The translations under genes were made by a program, and so were the position numbers. Shown in pieces: positions 6,601 to 28,450 of a DNA stretch of 64,000 nt (position 1 is its first letter; every line of letters begins with the position of its first letter). The notes below the pieces were generated by a model. The model was not told the DNA's origin. It made no database searches and saw only the letters and a list, made by a program, of their open reading frames with translations. The stretch spans positions 62,001-126,000 of the forward strand of contig NZ_JAUHPV010000002.1 in NCBI RefSeq assembly GCF_030418315.1. The letters run 5' to 3'. Source of the stretch: Demequina zhanjiangensis (lineage in GTDB: Bacteria > Actinomycetota > Actinomycetes > Actinomycetales > Demequinaceae).

Positions 6601-9600
6601 GTCCGGGGTCAGCAGCGGATCGCTCACGACCACGTTCGTGAGGTTCGCCTCGCCCGTGTTCGTGGCCGTCACCGTGTACGTGAGCGTGTCACCCTCGGAG
6701 ACGTCGCCCGACCCGTCCTCGTCCGTGTTCACGGGCCCCGTCTTGACGACCTCGAGCCCGGGCTCAGGCACGGGCGTGACGACCGGGGGCGTGGTGATGA
6801 CACCCACCTGGTCGCCGTCACCGGTGCCGGTGTTCCTGATCTCGCCCGCGGCCACATCATCGGCCGTCACCACATACGTGCCTTCCAGCACGCATTGCTC
6901 CCCAGGCGCCAGCGTCGGGCACGTGATCGAGTCCGGGGTCAGCAGCGGATCGCTCACGACCACGTTCGTCACGGTGGCCGTGCCCGTGTTCGTGACGGTG
7001 ACCGTGTAGGTGAGGGTGTCGCCCTCGGAGATGTCACCCGACCCGTCCTCATCGGCGTTGGCCGGGGGATCCTTCACGATCGACAGCTCCGGGTACGGCA
7101 CAGGCGTCACAACGATCGACTCGATCTCGTCGGTCTGATCCGACCCCCCGAAGGCGGTGTTGTCGATCTCGCCCGCGGCCACGTCGGCCGCGGTGACCAC
7201 GTACGTCCCCTCGAGCACACAGGTCTCTCCAGGCGCCAGCGTCGGGCACGTGATCGAGTCCGGGGTCAGGAGCGGATCGCTCACGACCACGTTCGTGAGG
7301 TTCGCCTCGCCCGTGTTCGTCGCGGTGACGGTGTACGTCAACGTGTCACCGACGGAGATGTCACCCGAGCCGTCCTCATCCGCGTTCACCGGATCCGACT
7401 TCACGACCTCCAGCTGAGGCGACGGGAGCGGCGTGACCACCGGCGGAGTCGTGATGGTCTCCGTCTGGTCGCCGCCTCCAGCGCCGGTGTTCGTGATGCT
7501 GCCCGCCATCACGTCGTCCCCGGTCACCACGTAGCTGCCCTCGAGCACACAGGTCTCTCCGGGCGCGAGCGTCGGACACGTGATCTCGCTCGGCGTCAGC
7601 AGCGGGTCGGTCACCGTCACATTCGTCAGGTTCGCGGTCCCCGTGTTCGTCGCCGTCACCGTGTACGTCAACGTGTCACCGACTGAGATGTCGCCCGAAC
7701 CGTCCGCGTCCGCGCTCAGCACCGGCTCGTCCTTGACGATCTCCAGCCGAGGTCGAGGAACCGGCGTGACGACGATGTCTCGAGTCGACCCGGTCTGATC
7801 GGAATCGGCGACGCCCGAGTTGAGGACGAACCCGAGATCGACCGCCGTCTGAGTCACCACGTAGCTGCCCTCGAGCACACAGGTCTCTCCGGGCGCGAGC
7901 GTCGGACACGTGATCTCGCTCGGCGTCAGCAGCGGGTCGGTCACCGTCACATTCGTCAGGTTCGCGGTCCCCGTGTTCGTCGCCGTCACCGTGTACGTGA
8001 GGGTGTCGCCCACGGAGATGTCACCCGAGCCGTCCGCATCCTCGGTCAACGCCGGGGCGTCCTTCTGGACGGCGAGGTCAGGGAGCGGGACGGGCGTCAC
8101 GACGATCGAGTCGATCTGATCGGTCTGGTCCGAGTCGCCCGATCCCGTGTTGGTGATGCTTCCCGCGGCCACATCGTCGGCGGTCACCACGTACGTGCCC
8201 TCGAGCACGCATGTTCCACCCGGCACGACCGGATCACATGTGATCGAGGCGGGCGTCAGCATCGGGTCGCTCACGACCACGTTCGTGAGGTTCGATCCTC
8301 CCGTGTTGGTGACGGTGACCGTGTACGTGAGCGTATCGCCCTCGGAGACATCGCCCGACCCGTCCTCGTCCGCGTTCGTCGGCCCGGTCTTGACCACCTC
8401 CATGTCCGGAGTGCCGACGGGGGTGACGATCGGAGGCGTGGTGATGGTCTCCGTCTGGTCGCCGCCGCCTTCGGCCGTGTTGGTGATGCTGCCGGAAGCG
8501 ACGTCGGCGGCAGTGACGACGTACGTGCCTTCCAGCACGCACTCCTCGCCTGGCGCCAGCGTCGGGCAGGTGATCGAGTCGGGAGTCAGCAGCGGGTCGC
8601 TGACCGTCACATTCGTCAGGTTCGCGGTGCCCGTGTTCGTCGCCGTCACCGTGTACGTCAACGTGTCGCCCTCGGAGATGTCACCCGAGCCGTCGGCGTC
8701 GTCGGTGAGCTCGGGGACGTCCTTGACAACGATCAGCCGTGGGGTCGGGACCGGCGTGACGACGATCGACTCGATCTCGTCTGTCTGGTCGGAATCGCCG
8801 GTCGCCGTGTTCTCGATCTCGCCCGCCGCCACGTCGTCCGCGGTGACCACGTACGTGCCCTCGAGCGCACAGGTCTCTCCAGGCGCGAGCAGGGGGCACG
8901 TGATCGTGTCGGGAGTCAGGAGCGGGTCCGAGACGACGACGTCCGTCAAGGTCGAGGTGCCGGTGTTCGTCGCCGTCACCGTGTACGTCAACGTGTCGCC
9001 CTCGGAGATGTCACCCGACCCGTCCTCATCGGCATTGACCGGGTCGGACTTCACCACAGACATCCCCGGGATCGGCACCGGTGTGACGACGATCGACTCG
9101 ATCTCGTCGGTCTGGTCGGAGTCGCCGACGCCGGTGTTCCTGATCTCGCCCGCGGCCACATCGTCGGCCGTCACCACATATGTGCCTTCCAGCACGCACT
9201 CCTCACCTGGCGCCAGCGTCGGGCAGGTGATCGAGTCAGGCGTCAGCAGCGAGTCGGTCACCGTCACATTGGTCAGATTCGCCGTACCCGTGTTCGTCGC
9301 CGTCACCGTGTACGTCAACGTGTCACCCACGGAGACATCGCCGGAACCGTCCTCATCGGCGTTCACCGGCTCCGTCTTCACCACCTCAAGCTCGGGGCGC
9401 GGCAGCGGGGTGACGATCAGGTCGCGGGTGGACCCTGTCTGGTCGGAGTCGGCGGTTCCCAGGTTGATGAGGAAGCCGAGAGCGACAGCGGCCTCGGTCA
9501 CCACGTAGGAGCCTTCCAGCACGCACTCGTCACCCGGGGCGAGCGTCGGGCAGGTGATCGAGTCGGGGGTCAGCGACGAGTCGGTGACGACCACGTTCGT

Positions 9601-12600
9601 CAGGTTCGCGCTGCCGGTGTTGGTGGCAGTCACCGTGTACGAGAGAGTGTCGCCGACCGAGATGTCACCCGAGCCGTCAGCGTCGACGACGAGCGTGGGC
9701 GCGGTCTTCTCGACGTCGAGCCGCGGAGTGGGAACCGGGGTGACGACGATCGACTCGATCTCGTCGGTCTGGTCGGAGCCGCCGACGCCGGTGTTCCTGA
9801 TCTCGCCCGCGGCCACATCGTCGGCCGTCACCACATATGTGCCTTCCAGCACGCACTCCTCACCTGGCGCGAGCGTCGGGCAGGTGATCGAGTCAGGCGT
9901 GAGCAGCGGGTCGGTCACCGTCGCATTGGTCAGATTCGCCGTGCCCGTGTTCGTCGCCGTCACCGTGTACGTCAACGTGTCGCCCACGGAGACATCGCCG
10001 GAACCGTCCTCATCGGCGTTCACCGGCCCCGTCTTCACCACCTCAAGCTCGGGGCGCGGCACAGGGGTGACGACGGGCGGTGTCGTGATGGTCCCCGTCT
10101 GGTCGCCGCCGCCCTCCGCAGTATTGGTGATGCTGCCTGCGGCCACGTCATCGGCCATCACCACGTAGGTGCCCTCGAGCACACAGGTCTCTCCAGGCGC
10201 GAGCAATGGACACGTGATCGAGTCGGGCGTCAGCAGCGGATCGCTCACCGTCACATCCGTCAGGTTCGCCGTGCCCGTGTTCGTCGCCGTCACCGTGTAC
10301 GTGAGGGTGTCGCCCTCAGAGATGTCGCCCGAGCCGTCCGCATCCTCCGTGAGCACAGGCTCGTCCTTCGCGAGCTCAAGAGCGGGGCGCGGCAGCGGCG
10401 TGACGATCACGTCGCGCGTGGATCCGGTCTGGTCCGAGTCGGCCACAGCGCTGTTGAGGATGAATCCGAGAAGTCCCGCCGCCTCAGTCACCACGTATGT
10501 GCCCTCCAGCACGCACTCCTCACCGGGCGCGAGCGTCGGGCAGGTGACCTCGCTCGGCGTCAGCAGCGGGTCGGTCACCGTCACATCCGTCAGGTTCGCC
10601 GTACCCGTGTTCGTCGCCGTCACCGTGTACGTCAACGTGTCACCGACGGAGATGTCACCCGAGCCATCCGCGTCCTCCGTGAGCACCGGGGGCTCCTTGT
10701 CCACCGTCAGACGCGGGGTCGGGAGAGGTGTCACGACGGGCGGCGTGGTGACGGTCTCCGTCTCGCCCGAGTCGCCCGTGGCGGAGTTCTCGATCTCGCC
10801 CGCCGCCACATCCTCGGCCGTGACCAGGTAGGTGCCCTCGAGCACGCAGGTCTCCCCCGGCTCGAGGACAGGACACGTCGCCGAACCGGGTACGAGCATG
10901 GTGTCGATCACCACCACGTCCGTGAGGGTGGCGTTGCCGGTGTTCGTCGCCGTGATCGTGTAGGTCAGCGTGTCGCCCTCGGAGATGTCACCGGAACCGT
11001 CCGCGTCGTCCGTCAGCACGGGCACGTCCTTCACGAGCGAGAGATCGGGCACGGTCACCTCGACCGTCACCTCCGCCGTCGGCGGCTCGCGCGGGATCAG
11101 GTTGCCGTCGGGGTCGCTGCCCGTCACCGACGCCACGTTCGTCGTGGTCTCGGTGATCACCGCAGTGCACTCGTACGTCCAGGTCTCGCCGATGCTCAGC
11201 CGGCCGTCACCTTCGATGTCGCCCGACACGTAGTCCACCGGGGAGCACATGTCATCCGTCACGACGGGGTCGATGATCTCGTTGTCCAGCTCGCAGACCA
11301 CGTCACCTTCGTCGCACACGCTCACGTTCGTGATCGTGTACGTGTAGGTGACGGGAGTGCCCGCATCCACCAGCAGCTCCGACGCCTCCTTGGTGATGTC
11401 GAGAAGCGGATCGTGGACCCTCACGCGGTCGCTGTCCGTGCCCTCGGCGTTGCCGTCCGGCCCCGTGGCGTCGACCGTGACGGTGTTGGTCGTCGTCTCG
11501 TCGAGCGTGGTCGTGCAGGTGTACTCCCAGGCCTCGCCCGGCTCGAGCACGCCAAGCTCACCCCCGTCACCCGATGGCCCCACCAAAGGCGAGCACGTGT
11601 CATCCACGACGTCCACCGTCGTGAAGTCCGCGTCACCATCGTTGAACACCACGATCGTGTAGGTGACCGACTCACCGGGGAAGACCAGCTCCTGGTCCGC
11701 CGTCTTGCTCACGTCGAGGCTCGGCGCGATCACGTCCACGACCGCGATGTCCCAGTCGAGCCACGGCCTCCCCAGGGAGTCGCGGCCACCCACGACCACC
11801 TCGTTCGTCACGTCGTCCTCAACCACCGTGGTGCACGTGTAGGTCCACGTCTCGCCCGGATCCAGCAGCCCGTCGCCGTTCGTGTCACCGGGGTTGGGCT
11901 CTCCAGAGGCGGGCACCAGAGGCGAGCACTTGTTGTCGATGATCGTCACGTCGCTCAGCGGGTCGTTGCCGGGGTTCGTCACCTCGAACGAGTACGTGAC
12001 CTCGTCTCCGGGACTGACGACCGTCGGGTCAGCGGTCTTGTCCACCGCGATCGCCGGGTCGATGACGTCCACCGTCGCCTCGGCGTCGTCCGTCACGAGG
12101 TTGCCGAGCCGGTCCGTTCCCGAAGCCTCCGCGATGTTCGTCGTCGTCTCATCAAGCGTCGTCGTGCAGGTGAAGATCCAGGTCTCCCCGTCGTCGAGCA
12201 CGCTGTCACCGTTGGTGTCACCGGCCGTCGGCCCCTCCACCGGAGCACACCTGTCGTCGGTCACCGAGACCGCGTTCAGCGACTCGACGGTGCCCTCGGC
12301 GAGCGTCACCTCGTAGGTGTAGGTGACGGCGCCTCCGGGCCTCACGATCAGCGGGTCGGCGGTCTTCTCGATCGCGATCCCGGAGTCGATGACCTCGACC
12401 GTCGCCTCGTCCTCGTCAGTGACGGCCTCGTCCTCGCCGGAGCCTGGCGTGACCGGATCACCCGTCGCCGTCGCGGTGTTGGTGAACGTCTCGTCGACCG
12501 TCACGGTGCACGTGTAGATCCACGTCTCGTCGAGGTCCAGGACGCCGTCGCCGTTGGCATCCCCGGAGTCGAGCGTGGGGACGCACTCCGGCACGTCGGG

Positions 12601-15600
12601 GTCGGAGATCTCGACGTTCTCCAGGGGATCGTTTCCTTCGTTCGTCACCTCGAAGGTGTACGTGACGTCGCTTCCCGGCTCGGTGAACTCCGGGGCGACC
12701 GACTTGTCGAGGCCGATCTCGGGCATCACCCGCTCGATCTCTGCCGTCGCCTGGCCCGGGTCGGGCTCCTGATCGCTCGTGACCTCGGCCACGTTCACGA
12801 GCTCGCGGGGGAAGGGCGAGCCGTCCGCGTTCACGGTGCCCGTCACCTTCGCGGTCAGGTCGTCGCCCGGGGCGAGGTCGATCCCGTCGGCCTCATCGAC
12901 GATCGTCGGATGGCTCGTCGTCGTGAACGTGTCCATGCAGGCGATCGCCAGGTTGTCCACGGAGAAGTGGTCGTTGTCATCGTTGTCCGCGCCCGTGGCG
13001 ACTCCGATACGGCTCGTGGGGCCGAACAGGCCAGGCGTGTCGGCGGCGCTGATGGTGGTGCTGAACGACGTCCAGTCGCCCACCGCATCCATGAGGATCG
13101 AGTCGGCCTGGATCCACGCGTCGTCGTCGTTGTCGCCCCCGATGCTGATGACCCCGTCGCCGTCCCTGATCTGCGTGATGCGGTAGTCGAACGCGACGGT
13201 GCACTGGCCGTAGCTCGAGTAGTCCGCAGGCCAGACGAGACCCTTGTCCTTCTTGTTGATCTTCACCGCGCAGTCGCCGGTGACGCTGCAGTCGTCGCCA
13301 GGGGTCGTCTGGCTCTCCGAGGCGACATCGCCCGCGGTGCGGTCCGCCGGGTCGTTGTCCCGGTACTCGCCCCAGCCCGGCGCGAGGCCGGTCGAGAAGT
13401 ACGCCTTCGACTTGTAGTTCTCGAAGTCGTCCGAGATCCCACCGGCTCCGGCGCTGATGACGATCTCATCGAACAGCACCTCGTTGTTCGTGTTCACCTG
13501 CGGCGCCGTCGTGACCTCCACATCCGCGACGATCCCGAGCGCGCCACCGCTGATCTGGCACGCCGGCGGGATCGCAACCCCGGTGAGATCCACCGAGAAA
13601 GGCCCGTCCGGGGTCGCGAGCACCGAGTCGTCCGCGTAGTCGATCGCGTCGAGCTGCTGCCAGCCGCCGCCATCCCAGCAGCCGACGAAGAAGCGGCCGG
13701 CCTCGTTGTTCCGGGTGATCGTGTACTCGTACGAGACGTCCACGCTCGAGACACCCGACAGGTCGGTCTGCCATTGCAGGCCCTTGTCCCCATCGGTGAT
13801 CCGCAGGCACTGACCGTCGCCGCCAGGGCAGTCAGCGCTGGACTCGATCCTGACGTCGCCGTCCTTGGCCTGGTCGTTGTCGTTGTACTCCGTCCAGCCC
13901 GCGTCGTAGGTGTTGTCATCGTTGACATCGCGGTCGAACCCGTCGTCGATGAGCGTGACCGGCGCGGTCACGATCGTCTCCACGTGATCGACGCCCGTCG
14001 GCAGGTCGTCCGTCAGCACCACGTCGGTCTGGGTGGTGTCCCCCGTGTTGGTGACCGTGATGAGGTAGCAGACCTCGTCGCCTGGATAGTAGGTGGGACC
14101 GTCGAGCGGCTCGTCCGTGGCGCAGTCCACGGGCACCTTCGTGATCTCCAGGTCGCCTGCGACCACGTCGAAGGAGGCGTCGTCATCATCGGTCACGTTC
14201 CCGCTTCCGTCTGGAAGGGTGCCTGTGACCTCGATCGTGTTCACCCCGGAGGAGGGGGCTGCGGGCGCGGGCGAGAGCGCGCACGAGTAGGTGATCGACT
14301 CGCCGACCGCGAGCGCACCGAGCGTGCGGTCGCAGGAGGGCGCCTCGGGGTCGGTGACGGTGACGTCCTCAAGGTCGACGTCACCCGTGTTGGTGACCGT
14401 GATGTCGAACACCACGTCCCCGCCGTCCGTGACCGTCTGTCCATCCGGACTCTTGTCGACCGTGATCCCCGGTGCGATCGCGTCGACCTCGGCCGAGTCC
14501 TCCGCCGTGACGGGATCGCCTTCCTCCGTCTCCGCAGACGCCGTCGCGGTGTTGACCAGGTCCTCTCCGACGGGCGCGACGCAGGTGAAGATCCATTCCT
14601 CTCCCACCTGGAGGATGCCGTCCCCGTTCGTGTCACCGCTCTGATAGACGGGCTCGCACTCCGGAACATCCGGGTCTGTGATCGTGACATTGCTCAACTC
14701 GCCCGGCCCCACGTTCGACACCACGAAGGTGAACGTGACGTCCACAGGGTCGCCGCCGTTGCCGATCACGTCGATCTGCGTCGGATCCGCCGACTTCTCG
14801 AGGCGAAGACCGCTCACGACGGTCTCGTCGGTGTCGGTGTTGTTTCCCGGGACGAGGTCGAGCTGCGGCGCATCGACGGTCGCGGTGTTCTCGATGACGC
14901 CCGTGGCGTCGGCTCTGACGCGGCCGGTGATCTCGATCGTCGCCGACTCGTCCACCGCGAGGTCGCCCAGATCGCACTCGACCTGCGACCCGCCGTAGCC
15001 GCAGGTTCCTTGCGACGGCGTCGAGCGGACATAGATCAGCTGCGCGCTGGGCCAGTCGTCCACCACGGTCACGTCCGTCGCGTCGTTCGGACCGTTGTTC
15101 GTCACGGTCAGGGTGTAGGTCAGCTCCCCGCCGGGCGTGATGCTCACCAGGCCGTCGTCCTTCGTGAGGGAGAGATCGGCTCGCTCCACCACGACCGTCG
15201 GAGTCGTGTCGAAGCCGCCGCGCCCGCACAGATCGCTCACGGAGATCTTGACCTGACAGTCCTGCGCGCCCGGGGGCGCGGTGAACTGGGCGGACACGAC
15301 GCCGTCGTCCGTGGTGCCCTCCACCGGGTCGAAGGTGCCACCGCACGTCGACACCCACTCGTACTCGTAGCCGGGAGAGCCACCCGTGATGGTGGCGCTC
15401 ACCGTCACGGTCTCCTCCGCGACGATCGTGGCCGGCGCGTCCACCGACACCTCGAGGCCGCGCTCGATGCCGGACAGCAGGTTGAAGTTGAGGAAGGCGC
15501 GGATCGCTGCGACCGCCGCCTCGTCACCCGTGTCGAGGTCGTGCCCGGATTCGTACATCACGAGCCCGTTGCTCGGGTCGTCGTACGCGCGACCGTAGAC

Positions 15601-16776
15601 CAGGGTGGCCGCCTCTCCGGGAGAGACGTCGAGGTCGGGGTGGTCCGGGTCCCAGGCGAGCACCTTGGCGCCAGGGTTCCACGACGAGTCGCCGGAAGGG
15701 AGGTAGATCTGCTCCGACCCGTTGGTCTGCGCGTCGTCGATGGAACCGACGAACTGCATGATCGGGTCGGACCCGTTCGCAGTGTAGGTGTAGGGCGGGG
15801 TGCCGTCGTCGTGGTCGCCGAAGTCGATGAGCCCTTCCGTGGTGAGGAAGTTGAGCTCGGGATCGGGATCCACGTCGTCAGGATCGGAGACGTTCTCCAG
15901 CACCGACACCGCGTGGCAGCCCGCCCAGATGTAGCCGCCCTCGGCATTCCACGGCACGAGGCTTCCGTGGTCCTCCCAGCTGGGGTCCGCGTGCGGAAGC
16001 ACGAAGAGGTCATCGCAGGTGGTGAGGTCCACCGGGTCCTTGAAGATGTACGCGATCTTCTCGTCGCCCGTCGCCGCGGAGATCGTGGTCTCCGGGATGA
16101 ACGCCGCCTCGTAGTACGCCTGCCCGATGCTGCCGTTCTGGTTGTCGAGCACGGCGTTCGGCCAGTTGGTGAGGGTCGTGTAGACCGGCGCCGTGATCGC
16201 GGTGGTCGTGGGGCCGACGATGACCACGCCGTCGTCCCCCGCGTTGAAGTAGCCGCCGCCGTCCAGCACGGTGCCGTCGGGACCGCCCCACTGGTCCAGC
16301 ACCGCCTTCGCCTCAGCCGCATACTCGGCGCGGATGACGAAGGGGCCGCTCGTGAACTCGCGCCCGTCGTACTCCAGGTCGACGTCGGTGGACGCCTGGG
16401 AGCCATCGGTCGTCTTGTCCGGGTCGATGATCCATTCCACCGGGATCAGGTGCTCGATCATCAGCGCGTAGACGAGACCGTACGCCTGAAGCGCGTTCTC
16501 GTAGGTCTGCGGGTTCACACCCATGTCGATGATGTACGCGCCCGGTTCGAGCGTGGTGCCTGTGGCCGCGGTGGGGATGGGAGCGGCCTCGGCCGACCGC
16601 ACCGCCGTCACGCCGACGAGCGCGAGAGAGAGGACGACAGCGAAGGTCAGCGCCCGCCAGATGCCGTGATCGAGCCCCGTCCACGACGATGCCCTCCGGG
16701 TGCCTGTACCGCGCACTCGGAGGGACCTGTCTGCGGCCTCACCGTCGAGGCCCTGGAAAGAAAGGTGTGTCCTCAT
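3625..16776 (-). CDS. Giant repeat-rich secreted surface protein (DUF11/DUF7507-like)
   Basis: 4383 residues. An N-terminal signal peptide (hydrophobic core about 42-60, likely cleavage after AEA near 65, after a long basic n-region) leads to an unassigned globular domain (about 66-435) with a Cys287-His288 pair. A PKD-like module (about 445-530) and a DUF11 domain (about 535-655) follow. Next come about six DUF7507-like domains marked by NGDGxLDxGETWxYTC loops (near 719, 1407, 1523, 1636, 1740, 1858), with two beta-sandwich-like inserts (about 945-1105 and 1115-1285). Then 22 tandem repeats of 109-111 residues (about 1908-4325) end in a Gly-rich stretch, LGNTG, a hydrophobic segment and RMRR. 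That tail resembles a sortase signal, though not a strict LPXTG. No sortase lies in the window. Each repeat holds an EF-hand-like loop such as DADGSGDISVGD. A role as a long calcium-stiffened adhesin or stalk is inference. Confidence 0.9.
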   Translation of the reverse strand: MRTHLSFQGLDGEAADRSLRVRGTGTRRASSWTGLDHGIWRALTFAVVLSLALVGVTAVRSAEAAPIPTAATGTTLEPGAYIIDMGVNPQTYENALQAYGLVYALMIEHLIPVEWIIDPDKTTDGSQASTDVDLEYDGREFTSGPFVIRAEYAAEAKAVLDQWGGPDGTVLDGGGYFNAGDDGVVIVGPTTTAITAPVYTTLTNWPNAVLDNQNGSIGQAYYEAAFIPETTISAATGDEKIAYIFKDPVDLTTCDDLFVLPHADPSWEDHGSLVPWNAEGGYIWAGCHAVSVLENVSDPDDVDPDPELNFLTTEGLIDFGDHDDGTPPYTYTANGSDPIMQFVGSIDDAQTNGSEQIYLPSGDSSWNPGAKVLAWDPDHPDLDVSPGEAATLVYGRAYDDPSNGLVMYESGHDLDTGDEAAVAAIRAFLNFNLLSGIERGLEVSVDAPATIVAEETVTVSATITGGSPGYEYEWVSTCGGTFDPVEGTTDDGVVSAQFTAPPGAQDCQVKISVSDLCGRGGFDTTPTVVVERADLSLTKDDGLVSITPGGELTYTLTVTNNGPNDATDVTVVDDWPSAQLIYVRSTPSQGTCGYGGSQVECDLGDLAVDESATIEITGRVRADATGVIENTATVDAPQLDLVPGNNTDTDETVVSGLRLEKSADPTQIDVIGNGGDPVDVTFTFVVSNVGPGELSNVTITDPDVPECEPVYQSGDTNGDGILQVGEEWIFTCVAPVGEDLVNTATASAETEEGDPVTAEDSAEVDAIAPGITVDKSPDGQTVTDGGDVVFDITVTNTGDVDLEDVTVTDPEAPSCDRTLGALAVGESITYSCALSPAPAAPSSGVNTIEVTGTLPDGSGNVTDDDDASFDVVAGDLEITKVPVDCATDEPLDGPTYYPGDEVCYLITVTNTGDTTQTDVVLTDDLPTGVDHVETIVTAPVTLIDDGFDRDVNDDNTYDAGWTEYNDNDQAKDGDVRIESSADCPGGDGQCLRITDGDKGLQWQTDLSGVSSVDVSYEYTITRNNEAGRFFVGCWDGGGWQQLDAIDYADDSVLATPDGPFSVDLTGVAIPPACQISGGALGIVADVEVTTAPQVNTNNEVLFDEIVISAGAGGISDDFENYKSKAYFSTGLAPGWGEYRDNDPADRTAGDVASESQTTPGDDCSVTGDCAVKINKKDKGLVWPADYSSYGQCTVAFDYRITQIRDGDGVISIGGDNDDDAWIQADSILMDAVGDWTSFSTTISAADTPGLFGPTSRIGVATGADNDDNDHFSVDNLAIACMDTFTTTSHPTIVDEADGIDLAPGDDLTAKVTGTVNADGSPFPRELVNVAEVTSDQEPDPGQATAEIERVMPEIGLDKSVAPEFTEPGSDVTYTFEVTNEGNDPLENVEISDPDVPECVPTLDSGDANGDGVLDLDETWIYTCTVTVDETFTNTATATGDPVTPGSGEDEAVTDEDEATVEVIDSGIAIEKTADPLIVRPGGAVTYTYEVTLAEGTVESLNAVSVTDDRCAPVEGPTAGDTNGDSVLDDGETWIFTCTTTLDETTTNIAEASGTDRLGNLVTDDAEATVDVIDPAIAVDKTADPTVVSPGDEVTYSFEVTNPGNDPLSDVTIIDNKCSPLVPASGEPNPGDTNGDGLLDPGETWTYTCTTVVEDDVTNEVVVGGRDSLGRPWLDWDIAVVDVIAPSLDVSKTADQELVFPGESVTYTIVVFNDGDADFTTVDVVDDTCSPLVGPSGDGGELGVLEPGEAWEYTCTTTLDETTTNTVTVDATGPDGNAEGTDSDRVRVHDPLLDITKEASELLVDAGTPVTYTYTITNVSVCDEGDVVCELDNEIIDPVVTDDMCSPVDYVSGDIEGDGRLSIGETWTYECTAVITETTTNVASVTGSDPDGNLIPREPPTAEVTVEVTVPDLSLVKDVPVLTDDADGSGDISEGDTLTYTITATNTGNATLTDVVVIDTMLVPGSATCPVLEPGETCVLEGTYLVTAEDVAAGEIENSATGDSGETETVTTPPVVTPLPTPRLTVDKEPPVLTEDADGSGDISVGDTLTYTVTATNTGTANLTDVTVTDPLLTPSEVTCPTLAPGEECVLEGTYVVTEAAGLLGFILNSAVADSDQTGSTRDVIVTPLPRPALELAKDEPVLTEDADGSGDISEGDTLTYTVTATNTGTANLTDVTVSDPLLTPDSITCPLLAPGETCVLEGTYVVMADDVAAGSITNTAEGGGDQTGTITTPPVVTPVPRPELEVVKTGPVNADEDGSGDVSVGDTLTYTVTATNTGTANLTNATVTDPLLTPDSITCPTLAPGEECVLEGTYVVTADDVAAGEIRNTGVGGSDQTDEIESIVVTPVPTPRLDVEKTAPTLVVDADGSGDISVGDTLSYTVTATNTGSANLTNVVVTDSSLTPDSITCPTLAPGDECVLEGSYVVTEAAVALGFLINLGTADSDQTGSTRDLIVTPLPRPELEVVKTEPVNADEDGSGDVSVGDTLTYTVTATNTGTANLTNVTVTDSLLTPDSITCPTLAPGEECVLEGTYVVTADDVAAGEIRNTGVGDSDQTDEIESIVVTPVPIPGMSVVKSDPVNADEDGSGDISEGDTLTYTVTATNTGTSTLTDVVVSDPLLTPDTITCPLLAPGETCALEGTYVVTADDVAAGEIENTATGDSDQTDEIESIVVTPVPTPRLIVVKDVPELTDDADGSGDISEGDTLTYTVTATNTGTANLTNVTVSDPLLTPDSITCPTLAPGEECVLEGTYVVTAADVASGSITNTAEGGGDQTETITTPPIVTPVGTPDMEVVKTGPTNADEDGSGDVSEGDTLTYTVTVTNTGGSNLTNVVVSDPMLTPASITCDPVVPGGTCVLEGTYVVTADDVAAGSITNTGSGDSDQTDQIDSIVVTPVPLPDLAVQKDAPALTEDADGSGDISVGDTLTYTVTATNTGTANLTNVTVTDPLLTPSEITCPTLAPGETCVLEGSYVVTQTAVDLGFVLNSGVADSDQTGSTRDIVVTPVPRPRLEIVKDEPVLSADADGSGDISVGDTLTYTVTATNTGTANLTNVTVTDPLLTPSEITCPTLAPGETCVLEGSYVVTGDDVMAGSITNTGAGGGDQTETITTPPVVTPLPSPQLEVVKSDPVNADEDGSGDISVGDTLTYTVTATNTGEANLTNVVVSDPLLTPDSITCPTLAPGETCVLEGTYVVTAADVAAGEIDNTAFGGSDQTDEIESIVVTPVPYPELSIVKDPPANADEDGSGDISEGDTLTYTVTVTNTGTATVTNVVVSDPLLTPDSITCPTLAPGEQCVLEGTYVVTADDVAAGEIRNTGTGDGDQVGVITTPPVVTPVPEPGLEVVKTGPVNTDEDGSGDVSEGDTLTYTVTATNTGEANLTNVVVSDPLLTPDSITCPTLAPGETCVLEGTYVVTADDVAAGEIRNTGTGGSDQTDEVESIVVTPVPAPRLEVVKTGPVNADEDGSGDISVGDTLTYTVTATNTGTASLTDVVVSDPMLTPGSVTCALVAPGETCVLQGTYTVTADDVATGEIDNTATGGSDQTDEIESIVVTPLPFPDLALVKDVPVLTVDADGSGDISEGDTLTYTVTATNTGTANLTDVVVIDTMLTPGSETCPLVAPGETCVLEGTYTVTAEDVAAGEIENTATGSTDQTETITTPPVVTPVPSPELEVVKTGPVNADEDGSGDVSEGDTLTYTVTATNTGTANLTDVVVIDAMLTPGSQTCPLLAPGETCVLEGTYTVTAEDVAAGEIENTATGSTDQTETITTPPVVTPVPSPELEVVKSDPVNADEDGSGDLSVGDTLTYTVTATNTGEANLTNVVVSDPLLSPDSVTCPLLAPGETCVLEGTYVVTADDVETGTIENTGTGGSDQTDEIESIVVTPLPVPDLMIVKDEPVLTDDADGSEDISEGDTLTYTVTATNNGTANLTDVVVSDPLLTPDSVTCPLLAPGETCVLEGTYVVTADDVETGSITNTGSGGSDQTETITTPPVVTPLVPPDLTVVKTGPVNADEDGSGDVSVGDTLTYTVTATNTGEANLTNVVVSDSMLDPDSITCEFMEPGDTCVLEGTYVVTAEDVSAGEITNTGTGDGDQTGGVDSIVVSPVPLPRLMVEKGAPLLLEDADESGDISAGDTLSYTVTATNTGTANLTDVVVSDPLLDPDSVTCPLLAPGETCELTGTYIVTAGDVEAGSVANTGTGGSDQTEVTTTPPVVTPLPAPELAIVKDEPVNADDDGSGDIEAGDTLTYTVTATNTGEANLTNVVVSDPMLSPDSVTCAFLAPGETCVLEGSYVVTDADAEAGSILNTATADSDQTGSVTDQVEVPVASGDELGTGGGGGTGGQELGNTGADAAGLLRMALMLLLAGSLMLLTLGRMRRSSVMLRG
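3800..11055 (-). repeat. 22 tandem coding repeats of about 330 bp
   Basis: The codons for GDTLTYT recur at 4031, 4361, 4691, 5021, 5351, 5681, 6011, 6341, 6668, 6998, 7325, 7655, 7985, 8315, 8645, 8975, 9302, 9629, 9959, 10289, 10619 and 10952. The period is therefore 327-333 bp and always in frame. Some pairs are nearly identical at the DNA level: 7523-7668 equals 7853-7998, and 5428-5583 matches 5758-5913 with about two differences. This indicates recent duplication or gene conversion. The copy number may be unstable. Confidence 0.95.
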
Positions 16777-21760: not shown

Positions 21761-23233
21761 ATGCCGCTGCTGATCACAGGGGCCGCCGACGCGGGCCTCA
21801 TGGAGCTTCCCTGGGACATTCCTCTGAGCGCATGGCCGGAGGAGAGGATCGCCGCGCTCCCGCGCGGACTGTCCCGTCACGTCGTCCGCTTCGTGCGGCA
21901 CGGCGACGGCGTGCTCGCCGTCAAGGAGACGAACCCTGAGATCGCGCACCGCGAGTTCCACATGCTGCGCGAGCTCGAGCGCATGGAGGCGCCGTGCGTG
22001 AAGCCCGTCGCCGTGGTCACCGGCAGGCAGACGTCCGCGGGAGAGGAGCTGTCAGCCGCGCTCGTGACCGAGCACCTCGCGTTCTCCCTTCCGTACCGTG
22101 CGATCTTCTCCACCGCACTGCGCCGCGGCACCCTGACCCGCCTCATCGACGCGCTGTCCGTGCTCGTCGTCCGCCTCCACCTGGCCGGCTTCTACTGGGG
22201 CGACGTATCGCTGTCGAACGCTCTCTTCCGCCGCGACGCCTCAGAGTTCTCCGCGTACCTGGTGGACGCCGAGACGGGCGACCTGCACCAGCAGCTCTCC
22301 GACGGTCAGCGCGAGTACGACCTGGACACGGCGACCACGAACATCGTGGGCGAGCTGCTCGACCTCCAGGAGTCCGAGGACCTGGACGAGAGCGTCGACC
22401 CGTTCGACATCGGCACGCGGCTCGAGGCCCGCTACCGCGAGCTGTGGACTGCCCTCACCTCCACCGAGACCATCGATGCGAACGTGCCGTTCCACGTCGC
22501 CGAGCGCGTCCGCGCGCTCAACGCCCTGGGCTTCGACCTCGGCGAGATCGACATGCAGCAGACCGAGGACGGCACCGCCATCACCCTGCGGCCCAAGGTC
22601 GTGGACGCCGGCTACCACTCACGTCGCCTCATGCGCCTCACCGGCCTCGACGTGCAGGAGAACCAGGCGCGACGCCTCCTCAACGACATCGACGAGTACC
22701 GGGTCGTGCGCGAGGACCGTGCAGGGGCCAGCGCCGACGAGACGTTCGTCGCCCACGAATGGCTCACCCACATCTTCGAGCCCACGGTCCGCGCCGTGCC
22801 CCGCGCGCTGCGTGGCAAGCTCGAGCCCGCGCAGGTGTTCCACGAGGTGCTCGACCACCGCTGGTACCTGGCGCAGGCCGCCGCGAAGGACGTGCCGATG
22901 CCGGTCGCGACCGCGTCGTACGTCAAGAACGTGCTTCCCACCAAGGCCGACGAGCAGGCCGTCCTGGGGCGCTCGCTCGCCGAGATGACGGCCGAGCTGC
23001 CGGCGCTCACCGCGGAGGTAGGCACCCGCTACGAGGTCCGCGACCCGTACGCGAACGACAACACGCACGCGTGGGGCGGCGTCCCGGAGCCCGAGGAGGA
23101 GCCGGAGCCCACCGTCACGCGGGTGTCGACGCGCATCCCCACGCAGACCCGGCGTCCCCTCACCGCCGAGGAGCGCGCGGCACGGGACGCCGAGGCAGAG
23201 CTCGGCACGCTGGACTCCCCCGACGAGGACTGA
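21761..23233 (+). CDS. DUF4032 domain protein (kinase-like fold)
   Basis: 490 residues. The N-terminal half resembles a lipopolysaccharide-kinase-like fold: a possible ATP lysine in VLAVKETNPEIAHREF, and a catalytic-loop-like segment GFYWGDVSLSNALFRRD followed by LVDAETGDL, in the HxD..N / DFG order of protein kinases. The C-terminal DUF4032 region (about 240-410) is followed by a charged, Pro-rich tail. No function is established; small-molecule or protein phosphorylation is possible. It is transcribed alone from a likely leaderless promoter, and its 3' end converges with the HprK-like gene across 51 bp with a shared hairpin. In related actinobacteria DUF4032 genes often sit near rlmB-cysS. 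Confidence 0.85.
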   Translation: MPLLITGAADAGLMELPWDIPLSAWPEERIAALPRGLSRHVVRFVRHGDGVLAVKETNPEIAHREFHMLRELERMEAPCVKPVAVVTGRQTSAGEELSAALVTEHLAFSLPYRAIFSTALRRGTLTRLIDALSVLVVRLHLAGFYWGDVSLSNALFRRDASEFSAYLVDAETGDLHQQLSDGQREYDLDTATTNIVGELLDLQESEDLDESVDPFDIGTRLEARYRELWTALTSTETIDANVPFHVAERVRALNALGFDLGEIDMQQTEDGTAITLRPKVVDAGYHSRRLMRLTGLDVQENQARRLLNDIDEYRVVREDRAGASADETFVAHEWLTHIFEPTVRAVPRALRGKLEPAQVFHEVLDHRWYLAQAAAKDVPMPVATASYVKNVLPTKADEQAVLGRSLAEMTAELPALTAEVGTRYEVRDPYANDNTHAWGGVPEPEEEPEPTVTRVSTRIPTQTRRPLTAEERAARDAEAELGTLDSPDED

Positions 23234-23243
23234 CGCCGCCAGA

Positions 23244-23263
23244 CCGGCGCCGCACGGTGCCGG
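23244..23263. terminator. Bidirectional terminator candidate
   Basis: CCGGCGCCG / CGGTGCCGG, 9 bp including one G-U pair, with a 2-nt loop, between the convergent DUF4032 and HprK-like genes. Confidence 0.55.
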
Positions 23264-23284
23264 CGGGAAGCCTGCCCGTGCGGA

Positions 23285-24346
23285 TCAGGACACCGCCCGC
23301 TGCGGAACCACGTCGCCGATGTCAGAGAGCAACCACGTCTTGAAACCGCTGAGCTGGTCGAAATCGAGCTTGCGTGTGTTCACGAAGGACACATGATCGA
23401 CGTGACCGATGACGTGGCCGATGACGTTGCGCTCAAGCGCGACCACATCCTCCACCTGGTCCGAGTTGAGAACGTTGGCATACAAGCTGTCATTGAGATC
23501 CTCCGACTCGAGGATTCGATCGACGATCACGGCCAAGTCGTCTGTCGTCGAGAGGGCGTGGTCCTCTCCCTCCCTCAACAGGAAGACGATTCGGCGCACG
23601 GTGCTCCGCTTGCCCTTCTTGAAGTCCTCATACAGCTCCTCGGCGTGCACACGGGTCGAGATGAGGAACTCCTGACGCGTGAGCGGCTCAAGCACCGCGC
23701 GCATGAGGTCCTTCGTACGCACCTGAGCGCGCACAAGCCATGGCACCTCAGCGCCTCGCAGGGTGCGGATGTTGTACGCGAACAGATGCAAGGGTCGCAG
23801 GTAGCGCCTTACCTCGCCGGAGGAGGCATCAACGAGCAGCAGGTCGTCGCCGAGCACCCGCATCCCCTCGCCCATGAGACCAAGCGTGAGAGTCGTCTTC
23901 CCGGTGCCGCCGAATGCAGGGAAGAGGTATGCGTCACGCCCCTTCGTGACCCCTGCCGCGTGCATGAAGAGGATGTTCCGCTCCAGCAGTTTCAGGTATG
24001 CGACGGGCTCGATGACCTGCGCCTGGAGGAACAGGGTGACCACATTGGTGTAGACGCGAGCCAGGGGCTGATCCCTGAAGTAGATCCGCACGTGATCCGT
24101 CTCGAGCCCTCGGACCACGTAGTCGTACGTGAAGATCTTCTTGAACCGCAGACTTCGGCGGACGTCACCGGGTTCCTCGTCCGGCAGCTCCTGGACGATC
24201 GCTGCTGTGATGCGCGCAGCGTCCGGTCGCTCCCCCGTCGCCATGCGCGCGTACTCGTTCTCGAAGTAGCGATGATAGCGACGGCGCGACGCGACGACCT
24301 CGATCGTCAGCGCAGGATGGATGGTCCACGCAGACGACGACGTCAT
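23285..24346 (-). CDS. HprK/PEP-carboxykinase-like P-loop protein
   Basis: 353 residues. Residues about 123-180 match the HPr-kinase fold: LFMHAAGV, then a P-loop FGGTGKTT (145-152), then LGDDLLLVD (165-173), which places an acidic pair where HprK has its DD. The N-terminal 110 residues and the C-terminal half are unassigned. It is not the canonical bifunctional HprK, because the capture loop and C-terminal signature are not recognisable. The gene follows rlmB by 37 bp on the same strand, at the 3' end of the carD-isp-cysS-rlmB run. Its DNA is clearly poorer in GC (30 of 60 bases in 23461-23520), suggesting acquisition. GGGGAGA before the ATG serves as ribosome-binding site. The substrate is unknown. 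Confidence 0.7.
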   Translation of the reverse strand: MTSSSAWTIHPALTIEVVASRRRYHRYFENEYARMATGERPDAARITAAIVQELPDEEPGDVRRSLRFKKIFTYDYVVRGLETDHVRIYFRDQPLARVYTNVVTLFLQAQVIEPVAYLKLLERNILFMHAAGVTKGRDAYLFPAFGGTGKTTLTLGLMGEGMRVLGDDLLLVDASSGEVRRYLRPLHLFAYNIRTLRGAEVPWLVRAQVRTKDLMRAVLEPLTRQEFLISTRVHAEELYEDFKKGKRSTVRRIVFLLREGEDHALSTTDDLAVIVDRILESEDLNDSLYANVLNSDQVEDVVALERNVIGHVIGHVDHVSFVNTRKLDFDQLSGFKTWLLSDIGDVVPQRAVS

Positions 24347-24383
24347 ACGGGTCTCCCCTCAGTTCCGCTCTCTGGATGGCGGG

Positions 24384-25343
24384 TCAGGACACCGCGCGCT
24401 TGGCCTCGTACAGAGCGATCGACGTGGCGACGGACGCGTTGAGGCTCTCCGTGGTCGCCGCGATCGGGATCGAGACGATCTGGTCGCAGGTCTCGGACAC
24501 GAGCCGCGACAGCCCGTCGCCCTCCGACCCGACGACGATCGCGAGAGGCCCGTCGAGCAGGTTCGACTCGTGAAGGTCGACCTCTCCCCCGGCGTCCAGA
24601 CCGATGGCGAAGACGCCGGCCTTCTTGTAGTCCTCGAGGGTCCGGGCGATGTTCGTCGCGCGTGCGACGGGCACGCGCGCCGCCGCACCAGCGGACACCT
24701 TCCACGCGGCCACCGTCACGCCTGCCGCGCGACGCTCCGGGATGACGACGCCTGAGGCACCGAAGGCACCGGCCGACCTGAGGATCGCGCCAAGATTGCG
24801 GGGATCCTGGATGTGGTCCAGGACGACGATGCGCACTGGCGCGGTCGCCTCGAGCAGGTCGCGCGGGTCCGCGTACTCGTACGGCGGCACCTCGAGCGCG
24901 ACGCCCTGGTGAGGACTGCCGCCTGCGAGGCCGTCGAGCGCCGCCTTGGTGACCTCGCGCACCTCGATGCCCGCCTCGACCGCGAGGCCGACGATCTCGG
25001 TGACCCTGTCGTCCGCCTCGATCCGGTTGAACACGTGGAGCACGTTCGCGGGGATGCCCATGCGCAGCGCCTCGAGGACGCTGTTGCGGCCGATCGCGAG
25101 CTCGTCGGAGCCCGAGGTCCGGTTCCGCGGCGTCTGCTTGCCGCGCGGCGCCGGCCGCTTGGCAGCCTCACGCTCCGCGCGCTGCTTCGCCTTGTGCGCC
25201 TTGTGGTACGGACGGTCCTCGGCCTTGGGCGTGGGGCCCTTGCCCTCGAGCGCCTTGCGCCCGTGCCCGCCTGTGCCGACCGAGGCACCCTTCTTGGAGC
25301 CCGGGTTGCGGGTCGCGCCTCGACGCTGTGAGTTCCCTGCCAT
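24384..25343 (-). CDS. rlmB: 23S rRNA (guanosine-2'-O)-methyltransferase RlmB
   Basis: 319-residue SpoU/TrmH-family methyltransferase that modifies G2251 of 23S rRNA in characterised members. A basic low-complexity N-terminus (1-75) precedes the substrate-binding domain (about 80-155: AIGRNSVLEALR) and the knotted SPOUT domain. The latter shows motif 1 (DHIQDPRNLGAILRSA), motif 2 (IVVGSEGDGLSRLV) and motif 3 (IPIAATTESLNASVATSIALYE). The ATG at 25343 directly abuts the cysS stop codon, so translation is probably coupled. The HprK-like gene follows. Confidence 0.95.
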   Translation of the reverse strand: MAGNSQRRGATRNPGSKKGASVGTGGHGRKALEGKGPTPKAEDRPYHKAHKAKQRAEREAAKRPAPRGKQTPRNRTSGSDELAIGRNSVLEALRMGIPANVLHVFNRIEADDRVTEIVGLAVEAGIEVREVTKAALDGLAGGSPHQGVALEVPPYEYADPRDLLEATAPVRIVVLDHIQDPRNLGAILRSAGAFGASGVVIPERRAAGVTVAAWKVSAGAAARVPVARATNIARTLEDYKKAGVFAIGLDAGGEVDLHESNLLDGPLAIVVGSEGDGLSRLVSETCDQIVSIPIAATTESLNASVATSIALYEAKRAVS

Positions 25344-25344
25344 G

Positions 25345-26766
25345 TCAGCCCTCCTCGGCCAGCGCCCAGCGGGCGCCGTCGGCGGCGTCCTCGATGACGA
25401 TTCCTGCGGCCTGGAGCCGATCGCGGATCTCGTCCGCGGCGGCCCAGTCCTTCTCAGCGCGCGCCTCGGCGCGCTTCTCGATGTCAGCTCCGACGAGCAC
25501 CTCGAGCGCCTTGAGCGCCGGCTCGGACGTCCGGGAGGCGTCGGCCCACTGGGACGACGCGGGGTCCAGCCCGAGGACGTCGAGCATCGCGCGCACGGAC
25601 AGCAGCGCGGAGCGAAGCGCGTCGTCGTCCCCTGCGGTCAACGCCGCGTTTCCGCCGCGCACGGTCTCGTGGATGTGCGCCATGGCTCGCGGCACCGCGA
25701 GGTCGTCATCCATCGCGGTGACGAACGGCTCGGGCAGGTCCGCGGACGCGACCTGCTCCGCCGTGGGAGCGCCGACGCGCTCGGAGGCGCGGGTCACGAA
25801 GCCTGACAGTCGCGCCCACGTCGCCTCGGCGTCGTCCATGGTCTGATCGGAGTACTCGAGCATCGACCTGTAGTGGACCTGCGCGAGCGCGAGGCGGAGC
25901 GCCGCCGCAGAGTGGTGCGCGAGCACCTCCTGCACCAGCAGCCCGTTGCCGAGCGATTTGGACATCTTCGCCCCGGACTGGGTGACCCAGGCGGAGTGGA
26001 GCCACGTCTGCGCGAAGCCGTACCCGGCGGCGCGCGACTGCGCCTGCTCGTTCTCATGATGCGGGAAGCGCAGGTCGAGACCGCCGCCGTGGATGTCGAA
26101 GGCGTCGCCCAGATAGCGGCGCGCCATCGCCGAGCACTCGATGTGCCAGCCCGGCCGACCGGGACCCCACGGGGAGTCCCAGCGCGCGGTCTCAGGCTCG
26201 TCGGCCTTCGACGCCTTCCACAGCGCGAAGTCGCGGGGATCGCGCTTCACATCCGCGGGGGCGTCAGGCGCAGGCTCGAGGTCCTCGAGCGACTGCCGCG
26301 TCAGCGACCCGTACTCGGGGAACGACTGCACGTCGAAGTAGACGGAGCCATCGTGCTCGTAGGCGTGACCCAGCTCGAGCAGCCGCGCAGTGAGCGCGAG
26401 GATCTCAGGCATGTGGCCGGTCGCGCGCGGCTCCGCATCGGGCGGCAGGACGCCGACGGCGGCGTACGCGGCCTGGAACTCGCGCTCGTAGCGCAGCGCC
26501 CACGCCCACCACTCGACTCCCGCGTCCGCGGCCTTGGTGAGGGTCTTGTCGTCGATGTCGGTGATGTTCCGCACCATCGTCACGTCCAGGCCGGACCGTT
26601 GCAGCCACCGCTGCAGCACGTCGAACGCGACCGCGGATCGCAGGTGACCGATGTGGGGGCTCGACTGCACCGTGGGGCCACACAGATAGATGCCGACCTT
26701 GCCGGGAGTCAGGGGCGTGAAGGGACGCTCCACGCGGGTGGCGGTGTCGAACAGGTGCAGAGTCAC
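25345..26766 (-). CDS. cysS: Cysteinyl-tRNA synthetase
   Basis: 473-residue class I synthetase that charges tRNA-Cys. The first zinc cysteine is in YLCGPTVQ, the HIGH motif appears as PHIGHLRS, further zinc ligands are in IECSAM and HHENEQAQ, and the KMSKS loop is KMSKSLGN. Length and order fit the family. The start is GTG at 26766, preceded by a TAGCCT box 7 nt upstream, so it can be made from its own leaderless transcript as well as by read-through from ispF. It forms a unit with rlmB, whose start immediately follows its stop codon. Confidence 0.97.
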
Positions 26767-26835: not shown

Positions 26836-27309
26836 TCAGGCGTCCGGTGCGACGACCAGAGCGGTGGCGATCGCCGCGACGCCCTCGCCGCGCCCGGTGA
26901 GGCCGAGGCCGTCCGTCGTGGTCGCCGAGACGGTCACGGGAGCGCCGATCGCGTCCGACATCGCAGCCTCCGCGTCGGCCCTGCGCGGGCCGATCTTGGG
27001 ACGGTTGCCGATGACCTGCACCGCCGCGTTGCCGATCTGGAAGCCGGCCTCGCGGACGCGGCGCGCGGTCTCCGCAAGCAGCGCAGCGCCAGAGGCGCCC
27101 TTCCACTCGGGCCGGTCCACGCCGAAGTTGGAGCCCAGGTCGCCCAGCCCCGACGCGGAGAGCAGCGCATCGCAGATCGCGTGTGCGGCCACGTCACCGT
27201 CGCTGTGACCAGACAGCGCGCGCTCGTCGGGCCAGCTCAGCCCCGCGAGCGCGAGGCCCGTGCCGTCGCCGTACGCGTGCGTGTCAGTGCCGATTCCGGT
27301 ACGGATCAT
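26836..27309 (-). CDS. ispF: 2-C-methyl-D-erythritol 2,4-cyclodiphosphate synthase
   Basis: 157-residue enzyme of the MEP isoprenoid pathway that cyclises CDP-methylerythritol phosphate. The N-terminal metal site is [10 protein letters not shown] (D8 and H10), followed by the family's [17 protein letters not shown] and the substrate-binding GSNFG. It overlaps ispD as ATGA at 27306-27309 and so is translationally coupled. IspD and IspF catalyse non-consecutive steps (IspE lies between them), and ispE is not in this window. Confidence 0.97.
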
Positions 27310-27971
27310 GGCGTCGCGATCCTCTGCTCGAAGTGATCAAGGTCTTCGGGATAAGTGACCTTGCGGCCCTCGACGTCGCCGTCGCAGGTCACCACGCGGT
27401 AGCCGTAGCGCACGAGGAGCGAGCCGTCGTCGGTGCCCTCGAAGCCGTCAGCCTCAGCGCGTGCATGCGCATCACGGAGCTCGGTGGCCCGGAAGGCCTG
27501 AGGGGTCTGGACTGCGCCGAGAGAGGCTCGGTCAAGGTAGCCGAGGGCGCCGTCGGAGGTCGTCACGATCGTGTCCACGACAGGAAGGACGGGGATCACG
27601 CCGTCCGCGTCCTCCAGGGCCGCGAGCGCGCGACCCGACACCGCCACCGGCATGAAGGCACGGGCGGCATCGTGCACGAGGATCTCATCGGCGTCAGGCC
27701 TCACCGCGGCGAGGCCGAGCGCCACCGACCGCTGCCGGGTCTCACCGCCTGCGACGACCACCACGTCGGCCGCCACATGTGCGACGGCGTCACGAAAGGC
27801 GTCGAGGTGCTCGGCGGGTGCGGTGACCACGACCTGCTCGCACACGGCGGCAAGGGACGACGCGGCCCACGCCACCAGCGGAATGCCGCCGACGGGCGCG
27901 AGCGCCTTGGGAACATCGAGACCCAGCCGGGTCCCTGAGCCAGCGGCCGTCACGACGGCCGCGACGGTCAC
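27306..27971 (-). CDS. ispD: 2-C-methyl-D-erythritol 4-phosphate cytidylyltransferase
   Basis: 221-residue MEP-pathway enzyme that joins CTP to methylerythritol 4-phosphate. The nucleotide-binding loop [11 protein letters not shown] is at the N-terminus, [11 protein letters not shown] mid-protein is the second signature, and TPQAFR binds substrate. The GTG at 27971 is chosen because GTGA overlaps the carD stop codon exactly and the conserved fold begins at once. The open frame continues 16 codons upstream but only within carD. It is coupled at both ends, to carD and to ispF. Confidence 0.96.
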
Positions 27972-28450
27972 GAGGCGAGGACCTCGTCCAGACGGGCCTC
28001 CGCCGACTCCTCGTCGCACTTCTCAGCGAGCGCGAGTTCGGAGACGAGGATCTGGCGCGCCTTGTGAAGCATGCGCTTCTCGCCCGCGGACAGGCCCTTG
28101 TCGGTGTCACGACGGCTCAGGTCGCGGACGACCTCGGCCACGCGGATCACATCGCCGGAGGCGAGCTTCTCACCGTTCGCCTTGAAGCGGCGCGACCAGT
28201 TGGTGGGCTCCTCGACGTACGGCTCACGCAGGACGCCGAACACCTTCTCGAGGCCAGCCTCGTCGACGACGTCGCGGACGCCGACCAGGTCGACGTTCTC
28301 CGCGGGGACCTTGATGGTCAGGTCGCCCTGTGCGACACGGAGCTCCAGGTACGTCTTCTCCTCGCCCTTGATGGTCCTCTTGAAGATGTCCTGAATGGTG
28401 GCCGCACCGTGGTGCGGGTAGACGACGGTCTCGCCGACTGCAAAGTTCAT
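27968..28450 (-). CDS. carD: CarD-family RNA polymerase-binding regulator
   Basis: 160 residues. An N-terminal RNA-polymerase-interaction domain (1-60: [17 protein letters not shown]) and a C-terminal helical DNA-binding domain containing the conserved Trp (NWSRRFKAN) match actinobacterial CarD in length and order. In mycobacteria CarD stabilises open promoter complexes, especially at rRNA genes. It heads the carD-ispD-ispF-cysS-rlmB run with GTGA coupling to ispD and diverges from a lipoprotein gene. Confidence 0.97.

Follow-up and report, generated by a model that had tools for sequence, protein, structure and literature searches.

A putative HprK-related kinase behind rlmB of Demequina zhanjiangensis, from a subfamily found in a single actinobacterial genus

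The gene that follows rlmB in Demequina zhanjiangensis encodes a protein, P0002, that by sequence comparison belongs to the HprK-related P-loop superfamily and has the catalytic-type His, Lys, Asp and Asp positions intact. P0002 and its orthologues are classed here, from profiles and alignments, as a new, previously undescribed subfamily of this known superfamily and not as a new mechanism; in the collections searched, the subfamily was found only in one actinobacterial genus. We infer that P0002 is an active ATP-dependent kinase. As its substrate we tentatively favour, ahead of the rivals weighed below and still at less than even chances, an envelope glycan, a glycolipid or a precursor from a cassette of GT4 glycosyltransferase and LPG_synthase_TM genes. 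Many HprK-related kinases exist, and to our knowledge hardly any of their substrates has been established apart from HPr and a few peptides.

The window, i.e. the whole stretch of DNA analysed, comprises 64,000 nucleotides (64 kb), and its features are collected in the table. The initial annotation had described an HprK-like P-loop ORF that ends a carD-isp-cysS-rlmB run and begins 37 bp after rlmB. The coordinates, the 37 bp between the rlmB stop (24384) and the start of the kinase ORF and the profile matches all agree with this description, and the carD-ispD-ispF-cysS-rlmB run ahead of the kinase was verified with Pfam and NCBIfam profiles; the position was correct as given, and the strand is specified here as minus. 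The kinase ORF ends 51 bp from the stop codon of the convergent DUF4032 gene, and the kinase is probably transcribed from the rlmB operon. Profile searches of the 64-kb window also bore out the claim that no peptide-maturation genes lie beside the kinase. Elsewhere in the window, the minus strand holds a 4383-aa open reading frame (3625-16776), which is likely to be a real giant protein given its GC3 of 0.90.

Table. Features of the kinase locus (window coordinates)
Feature	Position	Strand	Basis or remark
HprK-like kinase ORF (P0002)	23285..24346	-	353 aa, ATG at 24346
Shine-Dalgarno-like GAGGGGAG upstream of kinase ATG	24353..24360	-	read by eye
HAAGV motif, residues 129-133, His129	23948..23962	-	alignment
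P-loop (Walker A) GGTGKTT, residues 146-152, Lys150	23891..23911	-	coordinates by arithmetic
GDD motif, residues 166-168, Asp167/Asp168	23843..23851	-	alignment
rlmB, 23S rRNA 2'-O-methyltransferase, upstream neighbour	24384..25343	-	Pfam and NCBIfam profiles
DUF4032/Kdo-kinase-like gene, convergent neighbour	21761..23233	+	Pfam profile
cysS	25345..26766	-	profile
ispF (YgbB family)	26836..27309	-	profile
ispD	27306..28019	-	profile
carD	27968..28450	-	profile
rlmB/DUF4032 convergent gap	23234-24383		also L121, L123-L126, L128, L130
22-nt repeat, copy 1, rlmB 3' end including stop codon	24379..24400	.	
22-nt repeat, copy 2 (20/22 identical), kinase ORF 3' end, same frame (RAVS-stop)	23280..23301	.	

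With a GC content of 0.6205 (neighbours, about 0.70), the kinase gene has the lowest value of any 1-kb stretch in the window. Equally low values occurred in 1 of 630 sampled 1062-nt windows across the 64 kb, and the minimum over 60 nt was 0.483, so the low GC noted in the initial annotation is real. All three orthologues have a GC2 near 0.39, which makes this in part an amino-acid effect. GC3 is 0.819 in the kinase gene versus 0.906 in rlmB and 0.935 in the DUF4032 gene. Comparison with the orthologue from the distant congener G034 (NG86) gave a dN of 0.30 and a dS of 1.18, the latter close to saturation; the ORF has evolved under purifying selection and represents a real gene, beyond chance.

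In NCBIfam, P0002 matched HprK-related kinase A (TIGR04352) with an E-value of 1e-12 over residues 124-198 alone (about 75 residues). The three orthologues scored 47.8, 52.1 and 41.1 bits (E-values of 1e-12, 5e-14 and 1e-10, respectively) and did not reach the curated cut-off of 200. The core also matched HprK_rel_B (TIGR04355), at 29.6 bits (E 4e-7) against a cut-off of 200. No Pfam family lay above its cut-off; the best match, below it, was the core of ATP-dependent PEP carboxykinase (PEPCK_ATP, PF01293; E 0.009, residues 120-168), a weak likeness with no further domain in common. The protein had been described as HprK/PEPCK-like without the canonical HprK signature, and this characterization was right: neither Hpr_kinase_C, Hpr_kinase_N nor TIGR00679 matched P0002 in Pfam or NCBIfam at E-values up to 10. 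Searches of PHROGs and PADLOC returned nothing noteworthy, PDB sequence searches gave weak P-loop matches only, and the mean pLDDT of an AlphaFold model built from just two sequences, 36.6, was too low for a reading of the fold.

P0002 has the features by which we delimit the superfamily, namely a P-loop with HA(A/S)G upstream and DD downstream. The motifs HAAGV (His129), GGTGKTT (Lys150) and GDD (Asp167, Asp168) are the same in all three orthologues. Neither His129 nor Lys150 varies across 14 aligned HprK-like proteins, and the Asp167 position holds D in 12, E in one and N in one. Lasso-peptide kinases require a His-Lys-Asp-Asp set (PMC9266682), and it is this requirement, together with the conservation of the four residues, that points to P0002 being an active kinase.

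PqqD and a nucleotidyltransferase are the typical neighbours of HprK-related kinase A. P0002 shares the P-loop core of that family, whereas its N-terminal 120 and C-terminal 150 residues do not match the profile and the orthologues lack both types of neighbour (64-kb window, G034 and G021; partly by eye). From HPr kinase/phosphorylase (PF07475, TIGR00679) P0002 differs in the missing profile match, although the layout of P-loop and Asp-Asp is alike, as read through related proteins. The TIGR04355 family belongs to an amphi-Trp/ATP-grasp set whose partners are absent beside P0002; a true member, with 332.5 bits, is encoded at L077. SbnI, whose type of serine kinase had been proposed for structural comparison, belongs with SerK, of the ParB type. 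That comparison leads to another fold, as SerK is annotated as ParB (PMC5120207). The lasso-peptide kinases PadeK, ThcoK and PsmK have a His-Lys-Asp-Asp set (PMC9266682) that probably corresponds to the four residues of P0002; no lasso precursor, B or C gene lies beside P0002 in the window or beside the orthologue of G021.

When 99 genomes were searched with P0002, seven matched at an E-value of 0.001 or better, three over the full length and four in the core only. The full-length orthologues occur in 3 of the 44 genomes of the genus: D. zhanjiangensis itself (G000), G034 (67% identity) and G021 (54%). In G021 the gene heads a glycosyltransferase-flippase-like operon; the extended frame of the matched stretch contains one in-frame TGA, and the ORF itself is open. 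A three-row alignment, applied at an E-value of 1e-6, matched in 2 of the 396 genomes searched from the order (G000 and G034), in 15 of 396 from the phylum and in 7 of 394 from the class. All of the matches listed from beyond the genus cover part of the profile only, mostly the P-loop core, and no full-length orthologue was found outside the genus in the genomes of phylum, class and order or among genome contigs, phages, plasmids and viral contigs. P0002 alone had no match in the genome contigs, and with the three-row alignment the G021 record (HGW-Actinobacteria-4) was the sole match. A phage- or plasmid-borne gene was considered and rejected, since searches of phages, plasmids and viral contigs, collections that may leave out the window's own genome, gave no match; a scan of viral contigs with rlmB also found nothing.

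The kinase has thus a patchy distribution. Instead of occurring throughout the family at this locus with host-like composition, the gene is carried by 3/44 genomes and lies behind rlmB in two of them, G000 and G034; synteny of the rlmB 3' ends in 43 genomes showed the site to be otherwise empty or occupied by other cargo. Of the initial annotation's 'acquired' kinase, the accessory character therefore stands; as to its origin, the presence of the same gene at the same site in a distant congener lets ancestral presence with repeated loss compete with two insertions.

rlmB is present in all 44 genomes of the genus. The distance between the 3' ends of rlmB and the DUF4032 gene, estimated from tblastn matches in 43 genomes (G025 ends at a contig end), was 9-194 bp in 34 and more than 800 bp in nine. 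Because extra genes occupy the gap in these nine, it is a tolerant site with cargo that changes across the genus, and the rlmB 3' side is hereby documented as a small insertion spot. The cargo is the kinase in two genomes (G000, G034), an HAD-type hydrolase-like ORF in G007, G003, G032, G018 and G013, a GAF-EAL protein in G005, and a regulator-like ORF among others in G022 (all but the kinase by eye). The site is empty in the closest genomes by rlmB (G038, G004, G012 and G001; 90-92%) and also in G014, the sister of G034 and itself without the kinase.

The insert of G000 is closed by a 22-nt repeat, which suggests, from its placement at both stop codons, an insertion with duplication of the rlmB end. 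None of 200 dinucleotide shuffles reached 20/22. A repeat as good was present in 15 of 62 tiled 1.5-kb windows over the 64 kb, one of them containing the rlmB/kinase repeat itself, so the weight of the repeat rests on its position. With up to three mismatches it occurs at three places in the genome, the third copy being weaker, and no such repeat was found at the rlmB-site kinase of G034. The kinase may instead have been present in the ancestor of this part of the genus, with many later losses in place of independent insertions in G000 and G034, an alternative to which we give somewhat less than even odds. Site and orientation are identical in the two distant lineages, the kinase (0.29, 0.21, 0.50) and the cassette gene UPF0104 (0.28, 0.21, 0.46) have diverged equally at the codon positions between the same genomes, the GC3 of the G021 kinase (0.768) is in line with its neighbours there, and clean loss would be possible through the 22-nt repeat. 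On the rlmB+DUF4032 tree, however, ancestry would call for no fewer than five losses, compared with two gains otherwise (counted by eye), the repeat is absent in G034, and two independent gains are plausible at a hot spot for other cargo. Recent exchange of rlmB sequence between these two genomes was also considered and rejected, as rlmB shows no sign of it.

The envelope-glycan substrate is favoured because all three carriers of the kinase also hold the glycosyltransferase cassette, a link that is modest. The operon of G021 opens with the kinase gene; a GT4 glycosyltransferase follows 3 bp on, and an LPG_synthase_TM-like membrane protein (E 3e-7, just under the cut-off) is also encoded there. 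Relatives of the GT4 protein (at least 44% identity) occur in 9 of the 44 genomes, all three carriers among them. With G021 left out, since it prompted the test, both remaining carriers fall within the 8 cassette genomes of 43 (p 0.031), a value uncorrected for phylogeny and based on two genomes. The kinase is absent from six of the nine cassette genomes, including G014, and in two of the three carriers it does not adjoin glycan genes: the cassette of G000 is on another contig (C12) and that of G034 about 45 kb from the kinase.

The gene order GT4, polysaccharide pyruvyltransferase, LPG_synthase_TM is found in seven of the nine cassette genomes, including G000 and G034. The pyruvyltransferase is broken up in G041 and absent in G021, and G019 has the same three genes in another order; in total it is present in 8/44 genomes and 2/3 carriers (p 0.08). 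Between a more distant GT4 and LPG_synthase_TM, G038 and G004 carry a sulfotransferase (Pfam; opposite strand) and G012 carries nothing. Thus, pyruvyl and sulfate transferases occupy the same cassette in other members of the genus, and a phosphate added to the cassette glycan would be an anionic decoration comparable to pyruvyl and sulfate groups. In such a reaction, His129 and Asp167/Asp168 would activate a hydroxyl of the substrate and Lys150 of the P-loop would hold ATP, and the phosphate would then be transferred.

The HprK-like proteins of other groups were found in several settings. One is fused to GtrA_DPMS_TM (G490), one adjoins a GT2 gene (G051) and one shares a single ORF with a sulfotransferase (G1000). 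These cases speak for the glycan link, as does a second HprK-like protein of the genus, which is fused to a phosphatase and encoded beside a Wzz-type gene (see below). Other HprK-like genes of the phylum and class have PqqD or GAK-type neighbours; with glycan as well as PqqD or GAK-type neighbours, genomic context varies within the superfamily. The insert of P0002 between motif and lid did not significantly resemble P0009 and P0010, which are glycan-linked (z 0.2-1.6), and was closer to L069 (z 2.7-4.7), itself in no evident glycan cluster. A lid region common to glycan-linked HprK-like proteins was rejected, the TRQ...VH likeness to P0010 being not significant against shuffles.

Three other functions were weighed against phosphorylation of a glycan. 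That the kinase acts on HPr or another protein at serine, functionally as an HPr kinase, seems doubtful to us. The catalytic positions are retained, and all three carriers encode an HPr with a serine in a SILGVMALG or SMLGVMALG stretch, which we take to be Ser46. HPr is, however, encoded in 35/44 genomes of the genus against 3/44 for the kinase, G014 has an HPr near-identical to that of its sister G034 and no kinase, and the canonical HPr kinase profiles do not match P0002. We likewise consider it unlikely that the substrate is a free metabolite (an amino acid, a sugar or a nucleotide precursor) unconnected with the envelope: the orphan location behind rlmB in two genomes, the breadth of the superfamily and the lack of a fixed partner would fit such a role, whereas the operon of G021 consists of glycan genes and not of a catabolic or biosynthetic route, and nothing points positively to a metabolite.

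Tailoring of a ribosomal peptide, as performed by lasso-peptide kinases, appears very improbable. Several HprK-related proteins do adjoin PqqD or asparagine synthase, and the catalytic quartet is probably the same (PMC9266682). Against this, no PqqD, nucleotidyltransferase, asparagine synthase or precursor gene was seen beside the three orthologues (profiles in the window; by eye in G021; rlmB and DUF4032 as flanks in G034), and the genus has such a set with another HprK-like protein.

The envelope-glycan substrate also allows a broader proposal, to which we give a small chance as a whole. P0002 would be the founder of an HprK-fold subfamily that phosphorylates an envelope glycan; the GT4/LPG_synthase_TM module would carry a pyruvyltransferase, a sulfotransferase, nothing or the kinase, and phosphate would be a third exchangeable anionic decoration, supplied by an accessory gene moving through the site behind rlmB. 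Among the matches listed in the open-access literature on HPr kinase or HprK-related kinases and glycan genes, none concerned an HprK-like glycan kinase. If the subfamily does act on glycans, the known substrates of the HprK-related superfamily would widen by a new class, and it could be tested whether, as a rule, carriers bear phosphate in the place of the pyruvate or sulfate of sister strains.

A second HprK-like protein of the genus is encoded in the D. zhanjiangensis genome about 15 kb past the window end (contig C11; L175:9537-10925) and also at L176-L180. In this protein an HprK-like core is joined to a low-molecular-weight phosphatase domain, and its gene adjoins a Wzz/tyrosine-kinase-like gene; such a union of kinase and phosphatase at a locus for polysaccharide chain length is of interest in its own right. 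L180 has PqqD-like and nucleotidyltransferase-like genes too, with several twin-arginine-type small secreted proteins nearby. At L148 (6657-9245), a sulfotransferase domain and an HprK-like core share one 862-aa frame, the long N-terminal part of which may be non-coding, near an asparagine-synthase-like gene. Finally, at L145 (7247-8975), L147 and L149, an HprK-like gene adjoins the gene of a secreted protein of the twin-arginine type whose tail is rich in proline, and a PqqD gene is also present in L145 and L147 (the latter by eye); the secreted protein and the HprK-like gene of these three loci form a possible peptide-modification set.
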